Shown in pieces: positions 21,556 through 28,562 of a stretch of DNA of 49,875 bases (positions are counted from its first letter, which is position 1; the number at the start of each line of letters is the position of its first letter). The translations under genes were made by a program, and so were the position numbers. Source of the DNA: Candidatus Coprenecus pullistercoris (lineage in GTDB: Bacteria > Bacteroidota > Bacteroidia > Bacteroidales > UBA932); assembly GCA_019116965.1 (NCBI GenBank), contig DXAT01000009.1:1-49875 (forward strand). Reading direction: 5' to 3'. The notes below the pieces were generated by a model that was given only the letters and a program-made list of their open reading frames with translations, did not search any database and was not told the origin of the DNA.

Positions 21556-22974
21556 TTATTCCTCGTAGCCAATCTCCACCAAGTTGCCGTCGACCGGAAT
21601 CAGGGCAGCGTTGTCCACTATGCGGCCACAGCCTCCATTGTAGTTGTACAACACGGAGGACACGCTTCCCGTATACTCGCCCTCATAAGTAAGATAGACT
21701 GCAATGTGGACATTACGGGTATCCAGCACATTGGCGGGAAGCTCGAAGGTGCGGTCGTCCTGCCAGAGCGTATTGGCCTCGAGGGTTACCGCCTCACCGG
21801 TCGCACCGTAAAGGCACGCCCGGGCGATATGGTTGTGCTCGGCCCTGCCGCTCGATGTGCCGGCCTGGTCGGCCATGACCTTATCCTCCAGAACAAATAC
21901 ATTGAGACGATACTCACCGGCCTGCTTGGAGGCTATATCGAGATGCAGGTTGATATTGCCACCCTCTACTGTGGCCGAACCGCCTATGGCTGTCCTTGAA
22001 GGCAGATCCTCCACGGCCTCGTCGGCGACATCAAAGAGAGCGTAGGTCAACGGGTTGGTCTGGCCCGGCAGCTTTCCGTAGTAGTTGGCCCAACCGTCAG
22101 GGAATGAGGACACCTGGAACATGGAACGAAAATCCGCCTCATTGCCGAGCGTCAGGTCTCCGGACTCATTGTACAGGCTGACTGCTACAAAACGGTCAGG
22201 CTCGCGCTTGAGAGCATTGTCTATACCCTCAGTCATACGGGGACAGTTCTGGCACCATGTACCGGTAAACTTCATGATAAGGGTACGACGGTAGAAGGCC
22301 CGGCTGTAATCCACCTCAACCGCACCGTTCTGGACAATCTCCACCGTAGCGGTGACTCCGGATGCCGAAAGGGTCACTACAGCGCTGCGCGGACTGGTGC
22401 CGTTGGCCTCTGCCTTGAGGGTCAGAACGGCCTCACGGCATTTCGATGCAGTCCTGCCATCTCCGAGAAAGGCCGCCTCACCGTACTCTATGCCACCCTC
22501 TACCGTAAGCCACGAAGCATCGGAAGATGCCTCGATGCCTGAAAGGTTGGTACTGAAAGTAAGAGCTACGGTCTGCGCGCTTCCGGAGATAGTCCTGGAA
22601 GACACCGCGTCGATACCCGGTACTCCATCCTGGATCACATAGTACTCGGTAAGAGCACCGCCGGCATCGATATTGAAGGTCCCCTCTCTCTCTGCTGTCT
22701 CCTGATTGACTCCGGTTGCCGTCACGGTCAGCGTGACCTGGCCGGCCTCACCCGATGCGGGCTGCACGGAGAACCAGTCGCTCTCCCCGACTACCTCCCA
22801 TGCGGAAGACATGTCGAGACTGAGCTGCGATGCCGCGCCCTGCTCGTTGGAGAGCAGGAAGGTCTCTCCGGCTACAGGTTCCTGACCGCCGTTTTCGGGT
22901 TCGCACGATGCTGCGAGTCCCACGGCCGCCACTGCAGAAGCTGCATAAAGAAATAGTCTGGTAAAACTGTTCAT
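21556..22974 (-). CDS. Omp28-type BACON/thioredoxin-like lipoprotein (second copy, operon end)
   Basis: A 472-residue exported lipoprotein (Cys24 in LAASCEPENGG). Two immunoglobulin-like modules follow: a BACON-type one (about 40-120: WEVVGESDWFSVQPASG ... YYVIQDG) and a second (about 125-225: SWLTVEGG ... VEIVQNG). The C-terminal half begins with a thioredoxin-like motif, KFTGTWCQNCP, with Cys241 and Cys244, as in the Omp28 family of Bacteroidota outer-membrane proteins, and ends in a beta-rich domain. It is a paralogue of the gene at 25071-26525, with the same architecture but a different CxxC dipeptide. It is the last gene of the dsbD operon, so a redox role on the outer membrane or surface is inferred. 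Confidence 0.88.
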   Translation of the reverse strand: MNSFTRLFLYAASAVAAVGLAASCEPENGGQEPVAGETFLLSNEQGAASQLSLDMSSAWEVVGESDWFSVQPASGEAGQVTLTVTATGVNQETAEREGTFNIDAGGALTEYYVIQDGVPGIDAVSSRTISGSAQTVALTFSTNLSGIEASSDASWLTVEGGIEYGEAAFLGDGRTASKCREAVLTLKAEANGTSPRSAVVTLSASGVTATVEIVQNGAVEVDYSRAFYRRTLIMKFTGTWCQNCPRMTEGIDNALKREPDRFVAVSLYNESGDLTLGNEADFRSMFQVSSFPDGWANYYGKLPGQTNPLTYALFDVADEAVEDLPSRTAIGGSATVEGGNINLHLDIASKQAGEYRLNVFVLEDKVMADQAGTSSGRAEHNHIARACLYGATGEAVTLEANTLWQDDRTFELPANVLDTRNVHIAVYLTYEGEYTGSVSSVLYNYNGGCGRIVDNAALIPVDGNLVEIGYEE

Positions 22975-22990
22975 TATTCAAAAACTTATG

Positions 22991-24559
22991 CTACAGTGTC
23001 ACGACGAGTGACAGATTGAATCCGGTATAGGCCGGAGTATAGCGGCACACACCGCCGGAGCACTGATAACCGTCCTTGAAGCGGCCCACATTGAGGGCTG
23101 CGCGCACTCTCGAATAAGAGTAGCTGATGCTTCCGTTGACATAGTGCGTCTTGGTGTCGCCGTAGTTCCACATATCCTGCACGGAGACGCTCCAGCGGGG
23201 TGCGAAACTGTACTCAAGCAGGGCAGCTGCCCAGTTCTTATGGTCCTCCTTGGTATAGAGGTGCTGCAGCTCGAGCCTGAGGGAGTTCTTGCGGTCGAAC
23301 TTATAGGTCATGTCGGCCACCACGGTATGCGAGCGGTAATACTCTCCGCCACCATGATGCCAGGTCTGCCAGGTATAGAAGAGTATCATCTTGAAGTCGC
23401 TTCCGAACCAGCGTTCCATGTCCACTGTCAGATCTCTGAACAGCAGACGGGACTCGTCGAGATATCCGCCCGTACCGGCAAAGTCTCGCTCGTGCCCGTA
23501 ATAGGTGGAGAAGTTGGCATGGATCTTCATGCCCTTCTTGCCGCCCATGACAGTGCCCCTGCGGAAGTTGTAGTACAGGTCGGCCTGGCCTCCGATCTCA
23601 TCCTGCTGAGTGGTATAGGGATTGAGGTTGGCCAAGGCATAGGTATGCTGCTGGGTCAGAGCCGGTACATAGTTGATGTAAGTGGTCAGTCCGTTGAGAT
23701 CGCGGGATGCCTGCAGGAACGGATTGCGGAGCTTGCGGAAAGTAACCAAGCCTCCGAAGCCGTGACCGGTATAGCCGAAGTCCACCTGAATCGCCTCCAT
23801 ACGGCTTGAATCGAGGGAGTTCTGCATACCGGGATCCGGACGGCGGCTCACATACTCTCCGCTGAGGCGGAAGCCGGCATAACCCAAAGCCATGCGGGCC
23901 GAGTAACCGAGTGTATGAGGGCTGACCTTGTCATCCTCCATGAGAAGAGGCTCATATTTGTCGAGCACGCTCCCCTCGATGGTCCAGTCGAAGTTCTGCC
24001 ACTTGGCCGCGCGGGAAATGGACAGGGAGAGGTCGGCTCCGGAAACCATAGCGTTTTCCGTATAGACTTTCACATCCCTGGTCTGACCGTAAAGAGCCTT
24101 CACCGTCAGGAAGTCCCCGAAGGTATAGCCTACCTTGACTCCGCGGATGGCGTTGTTGATACCGAGGGTACGGTCCTCGTAGGTACGGAAGAGCATTCCG
24201 CTTCCGAACTGGTCGTAGATGCTTCCCAAGCGGATGTCCCAGCCGTTGGCATTGTAGCCGGCATATACATCTGCCCTGAAGAAGTTACCCTCGAAACCAG
24301 TAAAATAGCCCTGCACCGCAGGCAGATAGCCCTCCAACTGAGCTCCCGCGTAGAAGCCCTTCCAGGTATAGTCCAGCTTCAGGTAGTTGTTCGTACCCAA
24401 GCGGCCGGCAGGAGGCGTCGCACCTGTCCCCTTGTCCTCGAGATAATAGGTGGTATTGGTCTCCAACCCTGCAGAAAAGTTGCCTCTGTCCTCATTCTGG
24501 GCAAAGGCAACCATCGTCAGAGTCAAAAGACCTACTGATAAGGTAAATCTTTTGAGCAT
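22991..24559 (-). CDS. DUF6029-type outer-membrane beta-barrel protein
   Basis: A 522-residue protein with a Sec signal peptide (about residues 1-20, AFAQ) and a mature sequence made of alternating amphipathic strands rich in Tyr, Phe, Trp and Gly, ending in the aromatic/hydrophobic C-terminus LSLVVTL typical of outer-membrane barrels. It matches the Bacteroidota family I know as DUF6029, often found beside Omp28-like genes. It is flanked by the TlpA gene (4 bases) and the second Omp28-type gene (16 bases) in one operon. Two Cys residues occur close together near the C-terminus (CSGGVC), which could form a disulfide in an outer loop. Function is unknown; a role as anchor or conduit for the lipoproteins is inference. 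Confidence 0.8.
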   Translation of the reverse strand: MLKRFTLSVGLLTLTMVAFAQNEDRGNFSAGLETNTTYYLEDKGTGATPPAGRLGTNNYLKLDYTWKGFYAGAQLEGYLPAVQGYFTGFEGNFFRADVYAGYNANGWDIRLGSIYDQFGSGMLFRTYEDRTLGINNAIRGVKVGYTFGDFLTVKALYGQTRDVKVYTENAMVSGADLSLSISRAAKWQNFDWTIEGSVLDKYEPLLMEDDKVSPHTLGYSARMALGYAGFRLSGEYVSRRPDPGMQNSLDSSRMEAIQVDFGYTGHGFGGLVTFRKLRNPFLQASRDLNGLTTYINYVPALTQQHTYALANLNPYTTQQDEIGGQADLYYNFRRGTVMGGKKGMKIHANFSTYYGHERDFAGTGGYLDESRLLFRDLTVDMERWFGSDFKMILFYTWQTWHHGGGEYYRSHTVVADMTYKFDRKNSLRLELQHLYTKEDHKNWAAALLEYSFAPRWSVSVQDMWNYGDTKTHYVNGSISYSYSRVRAALNVGRFKDGYQCSGGVCRYTPAYTGFNLSLVVTL

Positions 24560-24563
24560 AGTC

Positions 24564-25052
24564 TTACTGTAGTTTTAAGATTTGTTCGAAGTACTCCTCC
24601 TCACTGCCGGGAGTGTAGCCTGTATGCACATACACCACATTGCCGTCCTTGTCGAGGACATAGACCATAGGCTGGGTCTGCACATTCATGGCGCGCTTGA
24701 GGTCTCCGTTCTCGTCGAGCAGGAAAGTAAAGTCAGTCCAGCCGCGGCCGTTGACCATGGGGGCTACCTTGGCGCTCGAACGGGTGTCGTCGGTAGAGAC
24801 GGCCACTATCTTGAAGTCGGCCTCCTCGCTCCAGTCCACGAACGCATCGTTCATCGCTCCGAGCTCCTGCAGGCAGGGCTTGCAGGTTGTGTACCAGAAG
24901 GAGAGTATCACGGGCACCCCATCATCGAGGATGGACTGTACATCCACTATCTGTCCGTCGAGAGTCTTCACCTCCACGCTCGGGAGGGATTTCTGTCCCC
25001 ATACCGCCATCGGCAGCAGGAGCATGACTGCAAGTATCGCTAATTTTTTCAT
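24564..25052 (-). CDS. TlpA-like thioredoxin, periplasmic
   Basis: A 162-residue exported thioredoxin-fold protein of the TlpA/ResA/AhpC-TSA group. A Sec signal peptide (about 1-19, VWGQ) precedes LPSVEVKTLDGQ, the active site WYTTCKPC with Cys57 and Cys60, and the cis-proline motif TQPMVYVLDKDG. Such proteins reduce or oxidise specific disulfides in the periplasm and are commonly kept reduced by DsbD or CcdA. Here it lies between two Omp28-type genes in an operon headed by dsbD, so it is a likely carrier between DsbD and the outer-membrane proteins. Confidence 0.9.
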   Translation of the reverse strand: MKKLAILAVMLLLPMAVWGQKSLPSVEVKTLDGQIVDVQSILDDGVPVILSFWYTTCKPCLQELGAMNDAFVDWSEEADFKIVAVSTDDTRSSAKVAPMVNGRGWTDFTFLLDENGDLKRAMNVQTQPMVYVLDKDGNVVYVHTGYTPGSEEEYFEQILKLQ

Positions 25053-25070
25053 ATCCGGATATTTTAATCG

Positions 25071-26525
25071 TTAATCCTCATACTCGATGCCGATAGTGGC
25101 TCCGTTGGTCGGGATATCCACCACATTGTCCACTATGCTGTTGGCGTATGTAACATAAGTCACACCTACCTCGCCGACAAATGTTCCCTTATAGGTCAGA
25201 TATACTACGAGATGGAGACTGGCAGCATTCTCATACTCCTCAGGCAGAGGGATCGTACGGTCAACGGAAGTAATCCCGTAGTCCGCGATTTCTATGGGAT
25301 CACCGCCTGTTACCTCAGTAGCCTGAGACCTTACCACATGATTATGTACACAGTTGTTAGGGTCATCAATGAGACCATTGTAGTCAGATTGCTTAGCTAT
25401 CAGACCGTCCTCTACAACGAAGATATTGAGGTTATATGCACCGCCCTCCTTGGATACGATGTCGAGATGCAGCTTGATCTCGTCGCCCTCTATGGTGGCC
25501 GAACCTCCGATAGCCGTCCTGGCTTTAAGAACAGTAGTATCGGCTGCCTCCGATGCCAACTGGGCAATCAGCGAACCGGTAACCTGTACAGAGGAAGCAC
25601 CCAATGACGCGTAGTTATTGACAATAGCATTGGGGTAACCACCCACCATAAACTTATTCATGTAATGTTTATAATAATCATAAACAAAATAATCGGCTCC
25701 GCTCATTATACCGTATATGCTTATGGGCACGATACGGCCGGTCTGATCCATGGCTCGGTCAATAGCAAATGTCATTGTAGGACAATAACCGCAGCTGGTA
25801 GCCGTAAATTTCATCACGAAAGAGCGCCTGAAGAAATCCTTGCTGAAGTCGACGCCTATATCCTCGGTCTGAGTAAGAGTAACCTCCTGAGTCATCTCAC
25901 CGGCAGTAACGGTCACCACCGCATTGCGGTTGTCCTCTGCAGGGTTGGCCTGGATATTGAGACTGATGGTGGCGGTGCGGAGCTTTGACTCGGTCTCGCC
26001 GTCAGCGAGCAGGGTAGGATCGCTGTAGGTAATCTCGCCTACCTCTACCCAGTCGACATCGGAAGTGGCGCTGATGCCCTCCAGGTTGGTGGTTACAGGC
26101 AGCTCGAGCACCTGCTCATGACCGCCGATGGTCTTGGAGGCCTGAACCTCGAATCCGGAAGTTCCCTCCTGTACTACATAATATGAAGTAACTGCACCTC
26201 CGTCATTGATCATAAAGTTTCCGACTCTCTCGGCAAGCTCTTCGTTGACGCTGCTGGCCACTATGGTCAGAGTTGCAGGACCGGCCGTAGCTCCTGCCAT
26301 AGGAGACACGGAGAACCAGGGATTGTTGTTGACCACTTCCCATGAGGAAAGGCTCTCGAAATCCATAGTCACAGTTCCGTTCACCTCATTGGGGACGAAA
26401 AGAGTATTGCCCTGCTGTACAGGCTCGTCATTCCCGCCGCCATTATCCGGCTCGCAAGCGGAGAACAATACTGCCGTGCCGAACGAAGCGGCCAGACAGA
26501 TAAAGAATTTTGCAAGATTTTTCAT
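25071..26525 (-). CDS. Omp28-type BACON/thioredoxin-like lipoprotein (first copy)
   Basis: A 484-residue lipoprotein. The frame is open to 26570, but the ATG at 26525 is preferred because it starts a proper lipoprotein signal with Cys24 (LFSACEPDNGGG); the upstream start would overlap the dsbD stop and add a polar leader. Architecture equals the copy at 21556-22974: BACON module (SWEVVNNNPWFSVSPMAG ... YYVVQEG), second immunoglobulin-like module, then KFTATSCGYCP with Cys245 and Cys248 and a beta-rich C-terminal domain. Acidic residues right after the lipidated Cys resemble, but do not exactly match, known Bacteroides surface-export signals. It lies 25 bases after dsbD. Confidence 0.88.
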   Translation of the reverse strand: MKNLAKFFICLAASFGTAVLFSACEPDNGGGNDEPVQQGNTLFVPNEVNGTVTMDFESLSSWEVVNNNPWFSVSPMAGATAGPATLTIVASSVNEELAERVGNFMINDGGAVTSYYVVQEGTSGFEVQASKTIGGHEQVLELPVTTNLEGISATSDVDWVEVGEITYSDPTLLADGETESKLRTATISLNIQANPAEDNRNAVVTVTAGEMTQEVTLTQTEDIGVDFSKDFFRRSFVMKFTATSCGYCPTMTFAIDRAMDQTGRIVPISIYGIMSGADYFVYDYYKHYMNKFMVGGYPNAIVNNYASLGASSVQVTGSLIAQLASEAADTTVLKARTAIGGSATIEGDEIKLHLDIVSKEGGAYNLNIFVVEDGLIAKQSDYNGLIDDPNNCVHNHVVRSQATEVTGGDPIEIADYGITSVDRTIPLPEEYENAASLHLVVYLTYKGTFVGEVGVTYVTYANSIVDNVVDIPTNGATIGIEYED

Positions 26526-26550
26526 GACTTGATAATTAAGTGATTGTCTG

Positions 26551-28509
26551 TTATTCGTTGTATTTCTCAAGGCCCTTCTCCAAGAACCTTACAAAGTCAT
26601 CTACATCCAGATTGTAGCTTCTGGGATCGGCGAGCAGTTCCCCTCCACGGCCCTCAAGCACATAGCAGGGCTGAGCATTCACACCGTAGTTGGTGTACGC
26701 TATATGTGAATTGATCTTTCCTATTGTTTTAAGAGTCCTCTTTCCGTCTGATATCCAGTCGCTCTCATCAGCCTCCTTCTTGTCATCGCAGTACAGGGCC
26801 ACTATCACATAGTCGTTGCGGAGGATATCCAGCACGCGCGGATCGGACCATACCCGAGCCTCCATCTCGCGGCAGTTGACGCATCCGTGGCCGGTGAAGT
26901 CGATGAACAGGGGCTTGCCGGCCGCCTCTGCCTGAGCTCTGGCCTCTTCGAGCTCAAAGTAGCCCTGAAGTCCGTGAGGCAGATGCAGGAAGTCACTGTA
27001 TTTGGGAGCCTTGCCGGCCTCAGCCGTACCGCTTGTCTGAACATTGACGGTTGAGCCGCTTCCGAGCACGAAATCCTGAGTGGTGAGAGGAGGCAGATAG
27101 CCTGAGAGAGCCTTCAGAGGAGCTCCCCACATACCGGGAATCATGTACACCACAAAGGCGAACACTGCGATTACGAGGGTAAGACGGCCCACGCCTATGT
27201 GCTTCACATCGTCGTCATGCGCGAACTTGATCTTGCCGAGCAGGTAGAAACCGAGCAGGGTGAACACCACGATCCAGATTGCGAGATACACCTCCCTGTC
27301 AAGAAGTCCCCAGTGATATGTCTGGTCAGCGACCGAAAGGAACTTGAAACCGAGGGCCACCTCTATGAACGCGATGACCACCTTCACCGTATTGAGCCAG
27401 CCTCCGCTCTTGGGCAGCTTCTTCAGCATCGAGGGGAAGAGGGCGAACAGGGTAAAGGGAAGCGCGAACGCGATGGAGAACGCCAGCATGGTGATGATAG
27501 GAGTCCAGAACTCACCCTGGGTGGACTTGATCAGCACTGAGCCGACGATAGGTCCCGTGCAGGAGAATGATACAAGCACGAGGGTGAGCGCAAGGAAGAA
27601 GATGCCGCCGAAGCCCTTGGTGTCGGCCTTGGAGTCCGACTTGTTGACGAGCTTGGAGGGCATGGTTATCTCGAAGGCTCCGAAGAACGATGCCGCGAAT
27701 ATCATGAACACTATGAAGAAAATGATATTGGGCAGCCAGTGCGTAGCCAGCCAGTTGAAGATATCCGCCGTCACGGCGTCTCCTCCCACAATCCTGGTCA
27801 CGATAATGATAATCGCTATAGGAAGAGTGTAGAGAGCCACGATGAATATACCGTACATGGCTGCTCTGAGACGGCCTTTAGCCGCACCTCCCTCTCCCTT
27901 GAGGAAGTAGGAGACTGTCATAGGCACCATGGGAAAGACGCAGGGTGTCAGCAGCGCAGCAAAGCCCCACAGGATAGCCTCGATAATCAAGCCCCATATG
28001 CTCTTGCCCTCTGACACGGCATCCGATACTGTCGCCTCGACGGGATCACCGTCAGGCAGCATTATCTGAAACTCCTGGTCCGCAAGCGGCATGCAGTTGG
28101 TGTCGTCGCAGGTCATCCACTCCATGTAGACATTGACCTGGGCGTCTTTTTTCTTGAGCCGTATGTCCTGATAGAATGTCACAGAACCCTCGTATATGCC
28201 GATGTCCATCATGTAGACATCGTCATAATACTTGATAAGATTGCCTGTGACGGTCATCTCTCCCACTTTCTCGGCCCTGCGGTCATTGACGATATTGAAT
28301 TCGACAATAGTCGCATTGGGACCGAAATCAGTCCGGAGAGTGTCATAGATATGCCATGAAGAATCTATGGCAGCCGTAACCGAGACCCTGTACAGGTCAT
28401 CCTCTATCTGCTGTACAGACGAAGACCAGTGCGCATGCTGCTCCTGAGCATGTGCGGTGGTAAAGGCTGTGACAATCAGCAGAAGGGCTAAAATCAGTCT
28501 TTTCTTCAT
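26551..28509 (-). CDS. dsbD: Thiol:disulfide interchange protein DsbD
   Basis: A membrane electron carrier that moves reducing power from cytoplasmic thioredoxin to the periplasm. The ATG at 28509 is preferred to one at 28530, since it begins a clean signal peptide (MKKRLILALL ... AHAQ), giving 652 residues. All three redox modules are present: the N-terminal periplasmic domain with the pair in CDDTNC, the eight-helix membrane domain with Cys190 (LTPCVFPM) and Cys317 (FSCTGP), and the C-terminal thioredoxin domain with Cys543 and Cys546 (GCVNC). It is the first gene of the redox operon, and its substrates are probably the TlpA-like and Omp28-type proteins encoded after it. Confidence 0.94.
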   Translation of the reverse strand: MKKRLILALLLIVTAFTTAHAQEQHAHWSSSVQQIEDDLYRVSVTAAIDSSWHIYDTLRTDFGPNATIVEFNIVNDRRAEKVGEMTVTGNLIKYYDDVYMMDIGIYEGSVTFYQDIRLKKKDAQVNVYMEWMTCDDTNCMPLADQEFQIMLPDGDPVEATVSDAVSEGKSIWGLIIEAILWGFAALLTPCVFPMVPMTVSYFLKGEGGAAKGRLRAAMYGIFIVALYTLPIAIIIIVTRIVGGDAVTADIFNWLATHWLPNIIFFIVFMIFAASFFGAFEITMPSKLVNKSDSKADTKGFGGIFFLALTLVLVSFSCTGPIVGSVLIKSTQGEFWTPIITMLAFSIAFALPFTLFALFPSMLKKLPKSGGWLNTVKVVIAFIEVALGFKFLSVADQTYHWGLLDREVYLAIWIVVFTLLGFYLLGKIKFAHDDDVKHIGVGRLTLVIAVFAFVVYMIPGMWGAPLKALSGYLPPLTTQDFVLGSGSTVNVQTSGTAEAGKAPKYSDFLHLPHGLQGYFELEEARAQAEAAGKPLFIDFTGHGCVNCREMEARVWSDPRVLDILRNDYVIVALYCDDKKEADESDWISDGKRTLKTIGKINSHIAYTNYGVNAQPCYVLEGRGGELLADPRSYNLDVDDFVRFLEKGLEKYNE

Positions 28510-28531
28510 ATCAGTGTCTGTTGTAAACACG

Positions 28532-28562
28532 CAAATTTAAAAATTACCCCTTTAAAATCAAA
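28532..28562 (-). promoter_or_regulatory. Promoter of the dsbD redox operon, TTTG-N19-TAAATTTG
   Basis: On the minus strand TTTG (28562-28559) and TAAATTTG (28539-28532) are separated by exactly 19 bases. The start codon of dsbD is 22 bases after the -7 box. The promoter begins right behind the fabG stop codon, so the redox operon has its own start even though fabG runs in the same direction. Confidence 0.8.

Follow-up and report, generated by a model that had tools for sequence, protein, structure and literature searches.

A conserved TlpA–DUF6029–Omp28 gene module of Bacteroidota, found with dsbD in one operon, may pass reducing equivalents to the cell surface

Introduction

The known reducing pathways fed by the thiol electron carrier DsbD end in the periplasm. 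A stretch of DNA from Candidatus Coprenecus pullistercoris (contig DXAT01000009.1, 49,875 nucleotides, henceforth the window) raises the question of whether such a pathway could extend to the cell surface. Here dsbD is followed by genes for an Omp28-type lipoprotein (Omp28-A), a TlpA/ResA-type thioredoxin, a predicted outer-membrane barrel of the DUF6029 family and a second Omp28-type lipoprotein (Omp28-B). Like the DsbD–CcmG/ResA/TlpA/DsbC pathways, this operon combines DsbD with a ResA/TlpA-type CxPC thioredoxin; unlike them, it adds a predicted barrel and surface-type thioredoxins. A sequence-only reading of the window had proposed that all five proteins share one pathway carrying electrons outwards.

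Comparison with other DUF6029 loci led us to regard the operon as a DsbD-fed form of a conserved module, in which TlpA, DUF6029 and a surface thioredoxin-fold protein would together pass reducing equivalents to the surface. We put the probability of this reading at roughly 0.47. The shared location, in many Bacteroidota, of genes for a TlpA, a predicted barrel with two conserved cysteines and a surface-type thioredoxin suggests that these bacteria may deliver reducing power to their surface.

Results and Discussion

Conservation of the gene neighbourhood

Of 149 genomes sampled from the order, 87 contained DUF6029. The DUF6029 locus was read from the window itself and fetched from 80 of the other 86 genomes; one fetched locus (L111) had no DUF6029 frame, so that 79 loci plus the window made up the 80 frames of set 1. 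Five of the remaining six genomes were taken in a later set, and one (G110) was left out. Set 2 came from a scan of named genomes with the DUF6029 alignment, which gave at least 80 loci, or 79 once a locus without a frame (L120) was discounted; among the matches listed, it includes Bacteroidales, Flavobacteriales, Chitinophagaceae and Crocinitomicaceae. Genes were called as longest frames, and the profiles, trained by iteration on set 1 itself, were applied unchanged to set 2. At 95% identity there were four pairs of near-copy loci, two across the sets (L037/L178 and L046/L126) and two within set 2.

In set 1, TlpA lay directly upstream of DUF6029 on the same strand in 70 loci, Omp28 directly downstream in 66, and both in 59. 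In set 2, TlpA held the upstream position in 73 of 79 loci (143 of 159 overall). The placing of Omp28 was more variable there: it followed DUF6029 directly in the same orientation in 37 loci and in the reverse orientation in 6, and in 27, mostly from flavobacteria, it lay two genes upstream on the other strand. Counted within four genes of DUF6029, Omp28 was present in 70/80 loci of set 1 and 71/79 of set 2, or 141/159 in total.

When all neighbours of at least 100 amino acids within six genes were considered, TlpA-labelled genes held 143 of the 157 occupied slots immediately upstream of DUF6029 (position −1), as opposed to 25 of 1219 other slots. Clustering of these neighbours over the 159 loci returned a TlpA cluster in 146 loci (in 143 of them at −1) and an Omp28 cluster in 145, the latter formed by single linkage and holding 62 members that the profiles had left unlabelled as well as five labelled TlpA. 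The next family, phosphomannose isomerase, occurred in 24 loci, and all others in at most 11. Collapsing the DUF6029 proteins at 60% identity gave 95 clusters; 86 of these had a member with TlpA at −1, and 86 had one with Omp28 no more than three genes away. With the threshold lowered to 50% identity, the figures were 25 and 26 of 29 clusters. The set-2 survey, the neighbour clustering, the slot counts and the identity-collapsed counts together argue against chance or a purely local gene arrangement: the TlpA/DUF6029/Omp28 core is a widespread and specific module.

A recurrent upstream gene of about 326 amino acids was considered as a further component. One such protein was scanned and identified by Pfam as the phosphomannose isomerase mentioned above, and we judged its presence incidental. 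Fusions of DUF6029 with TlpA or Omp28 were found in neither of the two main sets. In four loci (L114, L115, L117 and L118, from Butyricimonas, Phocaeicola coprocola and two Bacteroidales metagenome-assembled genomes) the module was followed by two to three Omp28 genes and then by a gene of about 710–760 amino acids. Large lipoprotein-like genes (800–1040 amino acids) stood upstream of DUF6029 in L118, L119 and L122, loci without TlpA at −1.

Co-occurrence across genomes

The association was also visible at the level of whole genomes. In the order sample (149 genomes), DUF6029 and Omp28 were both present in 85 genomes, DUF6029 only in 2, Omp28 only in 6 and neither in 56; in a sample of the phylum (148 genomes), the respective numbers were 29, 13, 2 and 104. 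At least two Omp28 matches were found in 72 of the 87 DUF6029 genomes (one protein can give two matches), compared with any match at all in 6 of the 62 genomes without DUF6029. The type IX secretion marker SprA was present in 139 of the 149 genomes of the order, yet Omp28 was mostly confined to those with DUF6029. A relay such as that proposed here would explain why 85 of 91 Omp28 genomes in the order sample, and 29 of 31 in the phylum sample, also carry DUF6029.

The cysteine pair of DUF6029

The C-terminal CxxxxC pair of the window protein (C500 and C505) recurred in 159/159 DUF6029 proteins, 80/80 in set 1 and 79/79 in set 2, the latter being checked for CxxxxC within the last 60 residues. 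An alignment of 62 proteins (that of the window plus 61 of the 79 from set 2) contained no indel from Y473 to the position of the last window residue, and the preceding loop ranged from 10 to 23 residues. All members of 92 of the 95 clusters at 60% identity had the pair at this fixed distance; four sequences departed from it by a tail two residues longer and retained the pair. The alignment also contained a long conserved stretch, FYEQFGSG...YEDRxLG. A search of the PDB with the DUF6029 profile gave no credible solved relative by sequence, and its matches to RecA were judged spurious.

In outer-membrane barrels, the last strand generally finishes on the periplasmic side. This rule, together with the indel-free spacing of the C-terminus, would place the two cysteines in the last outer loop, a position that fits contact with a surface thioredoxin.

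The TlpA thioredoxin and the Omp28 lipoproteins

The small thioredoxin was assigned by Pfam to AhpC-TSA/Redoxin; it has a CxPC motif (CKPC) and ResA-type matches in the PDB, the nearest solved relative being 2m72, which we take to be PG_2175. The nearest NCBIfam model was ResA (60.6 bits against a cut-off of 170), and the ResA, TlpA and DsbE models all stayed below their cut-offs, which indicates the type of protein and no named subfamily. Every one of the 143 TlpA proteins at −1 kept a CxxC motif, of the CxPC type in 137, and 137 had a plain hydrophobic N-terminus without a lipobox. We therefore predict a soluble periplasmic thioredoxin of the TlpA/ResA type with a reducing role.

Both lipoproteins combine BACON domains (two stretches) with an Omp28 domain (PF11551; 72.5 and 61.0 bits, cut-off 34.9). 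Scores of 48.7 and 56.2 bits against the NCBIfam Omp28 lipoprotein subfamily (cut-off 150) mark them as members of the family outside that subfamily. The NCBIfam model "Omp28-related selenoprotein" was matched weakly (22.9 and 22.4 bits against 200), and a literature search found nothing joining Omp28 with selenoproteins. The thioredoxin-like CxxC that precedes the Omp28 domain, the conservation of which had been named as a check on the shared-pathway idea, was kept in 66/66 Omp28 proteins of set 1, and C245 and C248 were invariant in all 53 proteins of an alignment (the two of the window and 51 others). A lipoprotein-type cysteine column was likewise kept in 66/66.

Against the PDB, the Omp28 profile matched Omp28 itself (2r2c, 2.3e-25) and, over the thioredoxin and Omp28 regions, HBP35 (5y1a, 5.5e-20). 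These profile matches make the Omp28 family a homologue of HBP35, a thioredoxin of the cell surface whose activity has been measured.

Our lipobox pattern recognised 86 of 183 Omp28 proteins, a floor, as it missed many obvious lipoproteins. Many short Omp28 lipoproteins downstream of DUF6029 (e.g., those of L037, L048 and L165) begin with CDK[IV][ED]xP[YF] after the lipid cysteine, and this shared start may be a sorting or docking signal. Prevotella sp. P3-122 encodes a 1267-amino-acid Omp28-domain protein on the opposite strand beside the module (L193:1538-5341); it may have a link to the trypsin-directed Omp28 protein of Paraprevotella discussed below (PMC9477747).

Replacement of Omp28 by other thioredoxin-fold proteins

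We also inspected 20 further loci, comprising 12 weak DUF6029 matches (L195–L206) and 8 others of the phylum sample (L207–L214), with 7 of the 12 genomes of family f140 taken. TlpA was directly upstream in 17 of these loci. The C-terminal CxxxxC was present in 18, and the other two were one cut gene and one frame-broken gene. Omp28 was found in the neighbourhood of all eight loci L207–L214. It was a neighbour in none of the 12 weak-match loci, in which a thioredoxin-fold gene instead stood downstream of DUF6029 in 10 and upstream in L203, L206 being cut by a contig end.

Eight downstream proteins, from seven of those 10 loci, were scanned with Pfam (those of L196, L199 and L201 were left out of the scan). 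Seven combined AhpC-TSA and Redoxin with Por_Secre_tail, the sorting domain of type IX secretion and thus a surface address (L195, L197, L198, L200, L202, L204 and L205); the eighth, from L195, lacked the tail and looks like a lipoprotein, and so does the thioredoxin-fold protein encoded upstream in L203. In L195, L197, L198 and L200, a lipoprotein-like and a type IX-tailed protein are encoded in tandem and, judged by eye, resemble each other. A TlpA-labelled gene, so called by its label only, also lies downstream in L113 of set 1.

Type IX addresses were common in the main sets too: among 66 long Omp28- or TlpA-labelled neighbours, 60 matched Omp28 and 39 carried Por_Secre_tail. These 66 were drawn from 80 long proteins; those left out were mostly TlpA-labelled ones of about 480 amino acids, two of L096 and that of L193. 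Thioredoxin-fold genes in the Omp28 slot imply that the third partner is repeatedly of thioredoxin fold, that it comes from more than one family, and that it often bears an address outside the outer membrane.

A putative relay and its rivals

In the relay that we envisage, electrons would pass from cytoplasmic thioredoxin through DsbD to periplasmic TlpA. The DUF6029 barrel, by means of the CxGGxC-like pair in its last hairpin, would relay reducing equivalents to the outside face, and the Omp28 thioredoxins would receive them at the surface and use them to open disulfide bonds in proteins there or outside the cell. The barrel step might consist either of a loop swinging through the lumen or of a small thiol diffusing through the barrel. 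Such a putative outward flow, which the type IX-sorted partners and the kinship with HBP35 make better supported than it was on the window alone, is the best single explanation of the data. The more specific proposal that the barrel pair links periplasmic to surface thioredoxins, making DUF6029 a widespread outer-membrane thiol conduit and the outer-membrane counterpart of DsbD, is tentative; we know of no precedent for such a counterpart.

Several observations weigh against the relay. The gravest concerns the barrel: cysteines in an outer loop would be beyond the direct reach of periplasmic TlpA, so that the relay needs an extra step. This step is the weakest link of the relay. TlpA was absent from −1 in 16/159 loci, namely two at contig ends (L112 and L142), two with TlpA one gene further (L069 and L108) and 12 with another or no recognised gene at that place, and it was not directly upstream in L202, L210 and L214 of the further loci. 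Omp28 occurred without DUF6029 in 6/149 and 2/148 genomes. Conversely, 13 of the 42 DUF6029 genomes in the phylum sample had no Pfam Omp28 match; 12 of these belong to family f140, with its weak DUF6029 matches, and the 13th (G271) has an Omp28-labelled frame beside DUF6029. The Fisher values for co-occurrence (1.9e-31 in the order and 1.8e-18 in the phylum sample) are uncorrected and inflated by relatedness. No clear surface-export signal was matched after the Omp28 lipobox, the acidic residues at +2 to +6 being mixed (0–4 among the 86 proteins) and giving no verdict. Finally, dsbD lay within six genes of DUF6029 in only 7/159 loci. A DsbD_TM protein did nevertheless occur across the order (143 of 148 genomes); being so rarely a neighbour and nearly universal genome-wide, DsbD was rejected as a fixed part of the module.

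The shared-pathway idea thus survives in its core, since TlpA, DUF6029 and Omp28 adjoin in most loci and the Omp28 CxxC is conserved, and it is weaker in its DsbD-centred part. The expectation that all five genes would be neighbours elsewhere holds for the same three. Among the loci examined, the complete order of five was confined to the window and one congeneric genome (G126), where it lies in other surroundings.

The topology that troubles the relay is also the basis of an alternative in which no electrons cross the outer membrane. DUF6029 would be an ordinary outer-membrane protein, its last-loop disulfide made or rearranged by TlpA before insertion and Omp28 serving as a partner lipoprotein, an arrangement resembling LptD/LptE with DsbC. 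An indel-free, conserved pair in an outer loop would be in keeping with a structural latch, no neighbour is more constant than TlpA, and the DUF6029 cysteines would be out of its reach once the barrel was inserted. We nevertheless consider this account unlikely, as it leaves unexplained the thioredoxin fold of the third partner, the thioredoxin-fold replacements (several of them type IX-sorted) in 11 of the 12 loci without neighbouring Omp28, and the extra Omp28 copies that track DUF6029 across genomes. The CxPC motif and the occasional linkage to DsbD, moreover, point to reduction. The problem of TlpA's reach would vanish if the barrel were a pore for a small thiol/disulfide pair (e.g., cysteine/cystine), reduced by TlpA inside and used by the surface thioredoxins, with the barrel cysteines as a gate. 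The FYEQFGSG...YEDRxLG stretch could then line the pore (a guess by eye). The sole transporter part recognised among the 25 listed neighbour clusters, read by eye, was, however, an ABC ATPase in 10/159 loci, and we find such a shuttle improbable.

Two further explanations do without a relay. The one paper found to mention DUF6029 proposes a role in polysaccharide secretion; it describes, from HHpred, a similarity between DUF6029 and homologues of the Wzi barrel encoded close to OPX genes, with no thioredoxin linkage or cysteine pair reported there (PMC9603273; this and the other papers below are represented by the accessible part of their text). DUF6029 would accordingly be a Wzi-like 18-strand export barrel and the thioredoxins incidental, a view with which the phosphomannose isomerase in 24 loci is in keeping. 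A thioredoxin linkage in 143/159 loci is not incidental, however, the conserved cysteines would be left unexplained, and reading the 25 listed neighbour clusters by eye, without Pfam annotation, revealed no family of polysaccharide export; we hold this view very improbable. Slightly less credible still is a role in haem or metal acquisition, in which Omp28/HBP35-type proteins would be the surface binders of hemin or metal, with the thioredoxins maintaining their cysteine ligands in the reduced state. HBP35 is indeed a hemin binder that sustains growth when hemin is depleted (PMC2907840), and one TlpA gene of P. intermedia, not shown to be that of the module, is iron-responsive. The same reading of the clusters by eye, again without Pfam annotation, recognised no haem or metal transport family, and the iron-response literature offered nothing specific.

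Relation to known systems

A literature search at title and abstract level, mostly outside the subscription literature, found no published account of a TlpA/DUF6029/Omp28 module. HBP35 of Porphyromonas gingivalis, to which Omp28 is homologous over both regions, is a surface thioredoxin, one form of which resides at the cell surface, and it reduces insulin in a CxxC-dependent manner. Its authors raise the possibility that it contributes to a reduced cell surface, and they give no positive result for protection from oxidative stress (PMC2907840). The window proteins differ from it in reading as lipoproteins, in a genome in which SprA was not found. For HBP35, the accessible text mentions neither a barrel nor a source of electrons, and it leaves unexplained how the protein would be recharged outside the outer membrane (PMC2907840); the module is a testable candidate for that function. 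PG2173 of the same species, called an Omp28 lipoprotein, is on a list of immunoreactive outer-membrane proteins that a pull-down brought down together with host cells (PMC9722745).

Surface thioredoxins have also been described in Muribaculaceae, one of them type IX-sorted (and likened to HBP35) and one a lipoprotein; they were found through a diet association, and DUF6029 or a relay goes unmentioned in the accessible text (PMC13404670, 2026 preprint). In Shewanella, reducing equivalents cross the outer membrane to external disulfides through an Mtr/dsbD-dependent system, and a dsbD mutant lost about 90% of extracellular disulfide reduction (PMC10986466). The authors of that study invoke cytochrome maturation and Mtr (PMC10986466), whereas a motif scan found the CxxCH haem motif in none of the five operon proteins, which are in this respect unlike an Mtr-type porin–cytochrome conduit.

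If the relay exists, Bacteroidota would possess a surface thioredoxin system that can be recharged and that could reduce disulfide proteins of the host, the diet or rivals, and could thus act on disulfide-stabilised proteins outside the cell; DUF6029 would gain a function. Trypsin is a disulfide-rich protease. Protein 00502 of Paraprevotella clara, an Omp28-related type IX surface protein, acts on trypsin; its authors attribute the loss of trypsin to recruitment plus autodegradation, and recombinant protein was sufficient when bound to beads but in free form did not degrade trypsin (PMC9477747). Redox activity is not raised by the authors in the accessible text (PMC9477747); under the relay, this trypsin-directed protein would be a possible user of surface reducing power.

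DsbD and the clade of the window

The DsbD protein matched DsbD_TM (PF02683) with 67.1 bits (cut-off 27.1), and its C-terminal domain matched Thioredoxin_7 with 47.3 bits. In the PDB, the C-terminal domain had a strong match to 3f9u (1e-33) and weak ones to solved DsbD C-domains (0.00036–0.00065). The N-terminal part contains an extra CDDTNC pair at residue 134 (28093–28110) and gave no Pfam N-domain at E 0.1. With 112.3 bits against the NCBIfam DsbD subfamily cut-off of 330, the protein is DsbD-type and outside that subfamily. It was the single DsbD_TM match found in the draft genome, a point in favour of the relay.

G008, a genome of the same family, has a 61% identical dsbD with no module beside it, and profile searches of that genome returned neither a DUF6029 nor an Omp28 match. 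SprA had no match in four genomes with DUF6029, namely that of the window (G000, 92% complete), G126, G059 and G113, and a dependence of the module on type IX secretion was rejected on this ground. SprA had no match in G008 either, and so in none of the three genomes of the window's family (G000, G126 and G008); a type IX-sorted partner is therefore unexpected in this clade. Type IX secretion may have been lost in the family while the module stayed in one genus.

Layout of the operon

The order of the five minus-strand genes, the four CxxC sites and the CSGGVC pair were all as the sequence-only reading had described them (Table 1), and the intergenic gaps, which it had put at 4 to 25 bases, are 25, 18, 4 and 16 bases from dsbD to Omp28-B. 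Judged by this layout, the five genes form a real operon, the local form of the wider TlpA/DUF6029/Omp28 module.

Table 1. Features of the operon (positions in the window)
Feature	Position	Strand	Evidence
Promoter, Bacteroidota-type, TTTG-N19-TAAATTTG	28532–28562	minus	Exact consensus match
dsbD, 652 aa, thiol electron carrier by family; CVNC at 26872–26883	26551–28509	minus	Pfam and PDB profile matches, motifs
Omp28-A lipoprotein, 484 aa; BACON domains, thioredoxin-like CGYC at 25782–25793, Omp28 domain	25071–26525	minus	Pfam, motif, alignment
TlpA/ResA-type thioredoxin, predicted periplasmic, 162 aa; CKPC at 24873–24884	24564–25052	minus	Pfam, NCBIfam and PDB matches
DUF6029 predicted outer-membrane barrel, 522 aa; CSGGVC at 23045–23062	22991–24559	minus	PF19494 over residues 3–521 of 522, 573.7 bits (Pfam)
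Omp28-B lipoprotein, 472 aa; BACON domains, thioredoxin-like CQNC at 22243–22254, Omp28 domain	21556–22974	minus	Pfam, motif, alignment
Intrinsic terminator-like hairpin 3' of Omp28-B, 15 pairs (6 G-C), T-rich tail	21529–21496	minus	Position, not number

The promoter consensus of Bacteroidota is TTTG-N19-TANNTTTG, and the consensus promoter that had been proposed before dsbD proved an exact match in our motif scan. The window contained 7 matches with at most one mismatch, including 3 exact ones, where 1.10 would be expected, and 0 of 100 shuffles gave as many. A generic sigma-70 scan of the window did not list this promoter among its sites. Terminator-like sites were no commoner in the window than in shuffles (4 against 6.3 expected), so the hairpin behind Omp28-B is argued for by its position. 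The likely start of dsbD is the ATG at 28509, an alternative GTG at 28530 being at or before the expected transcription start. The promoter begins 1 base past the stop of an upstream fabG-like gene (named by eye), and read-through from that gene is therefore possible.

The draft genome carries a third Omp28 gene on contig 11 (L216:3940-4395), cut by the contig end and standing beside apparent ATP synthase genes (by eye). At its start (1–802), the window itself carries part of a minus-strand 16S rRNA gene.

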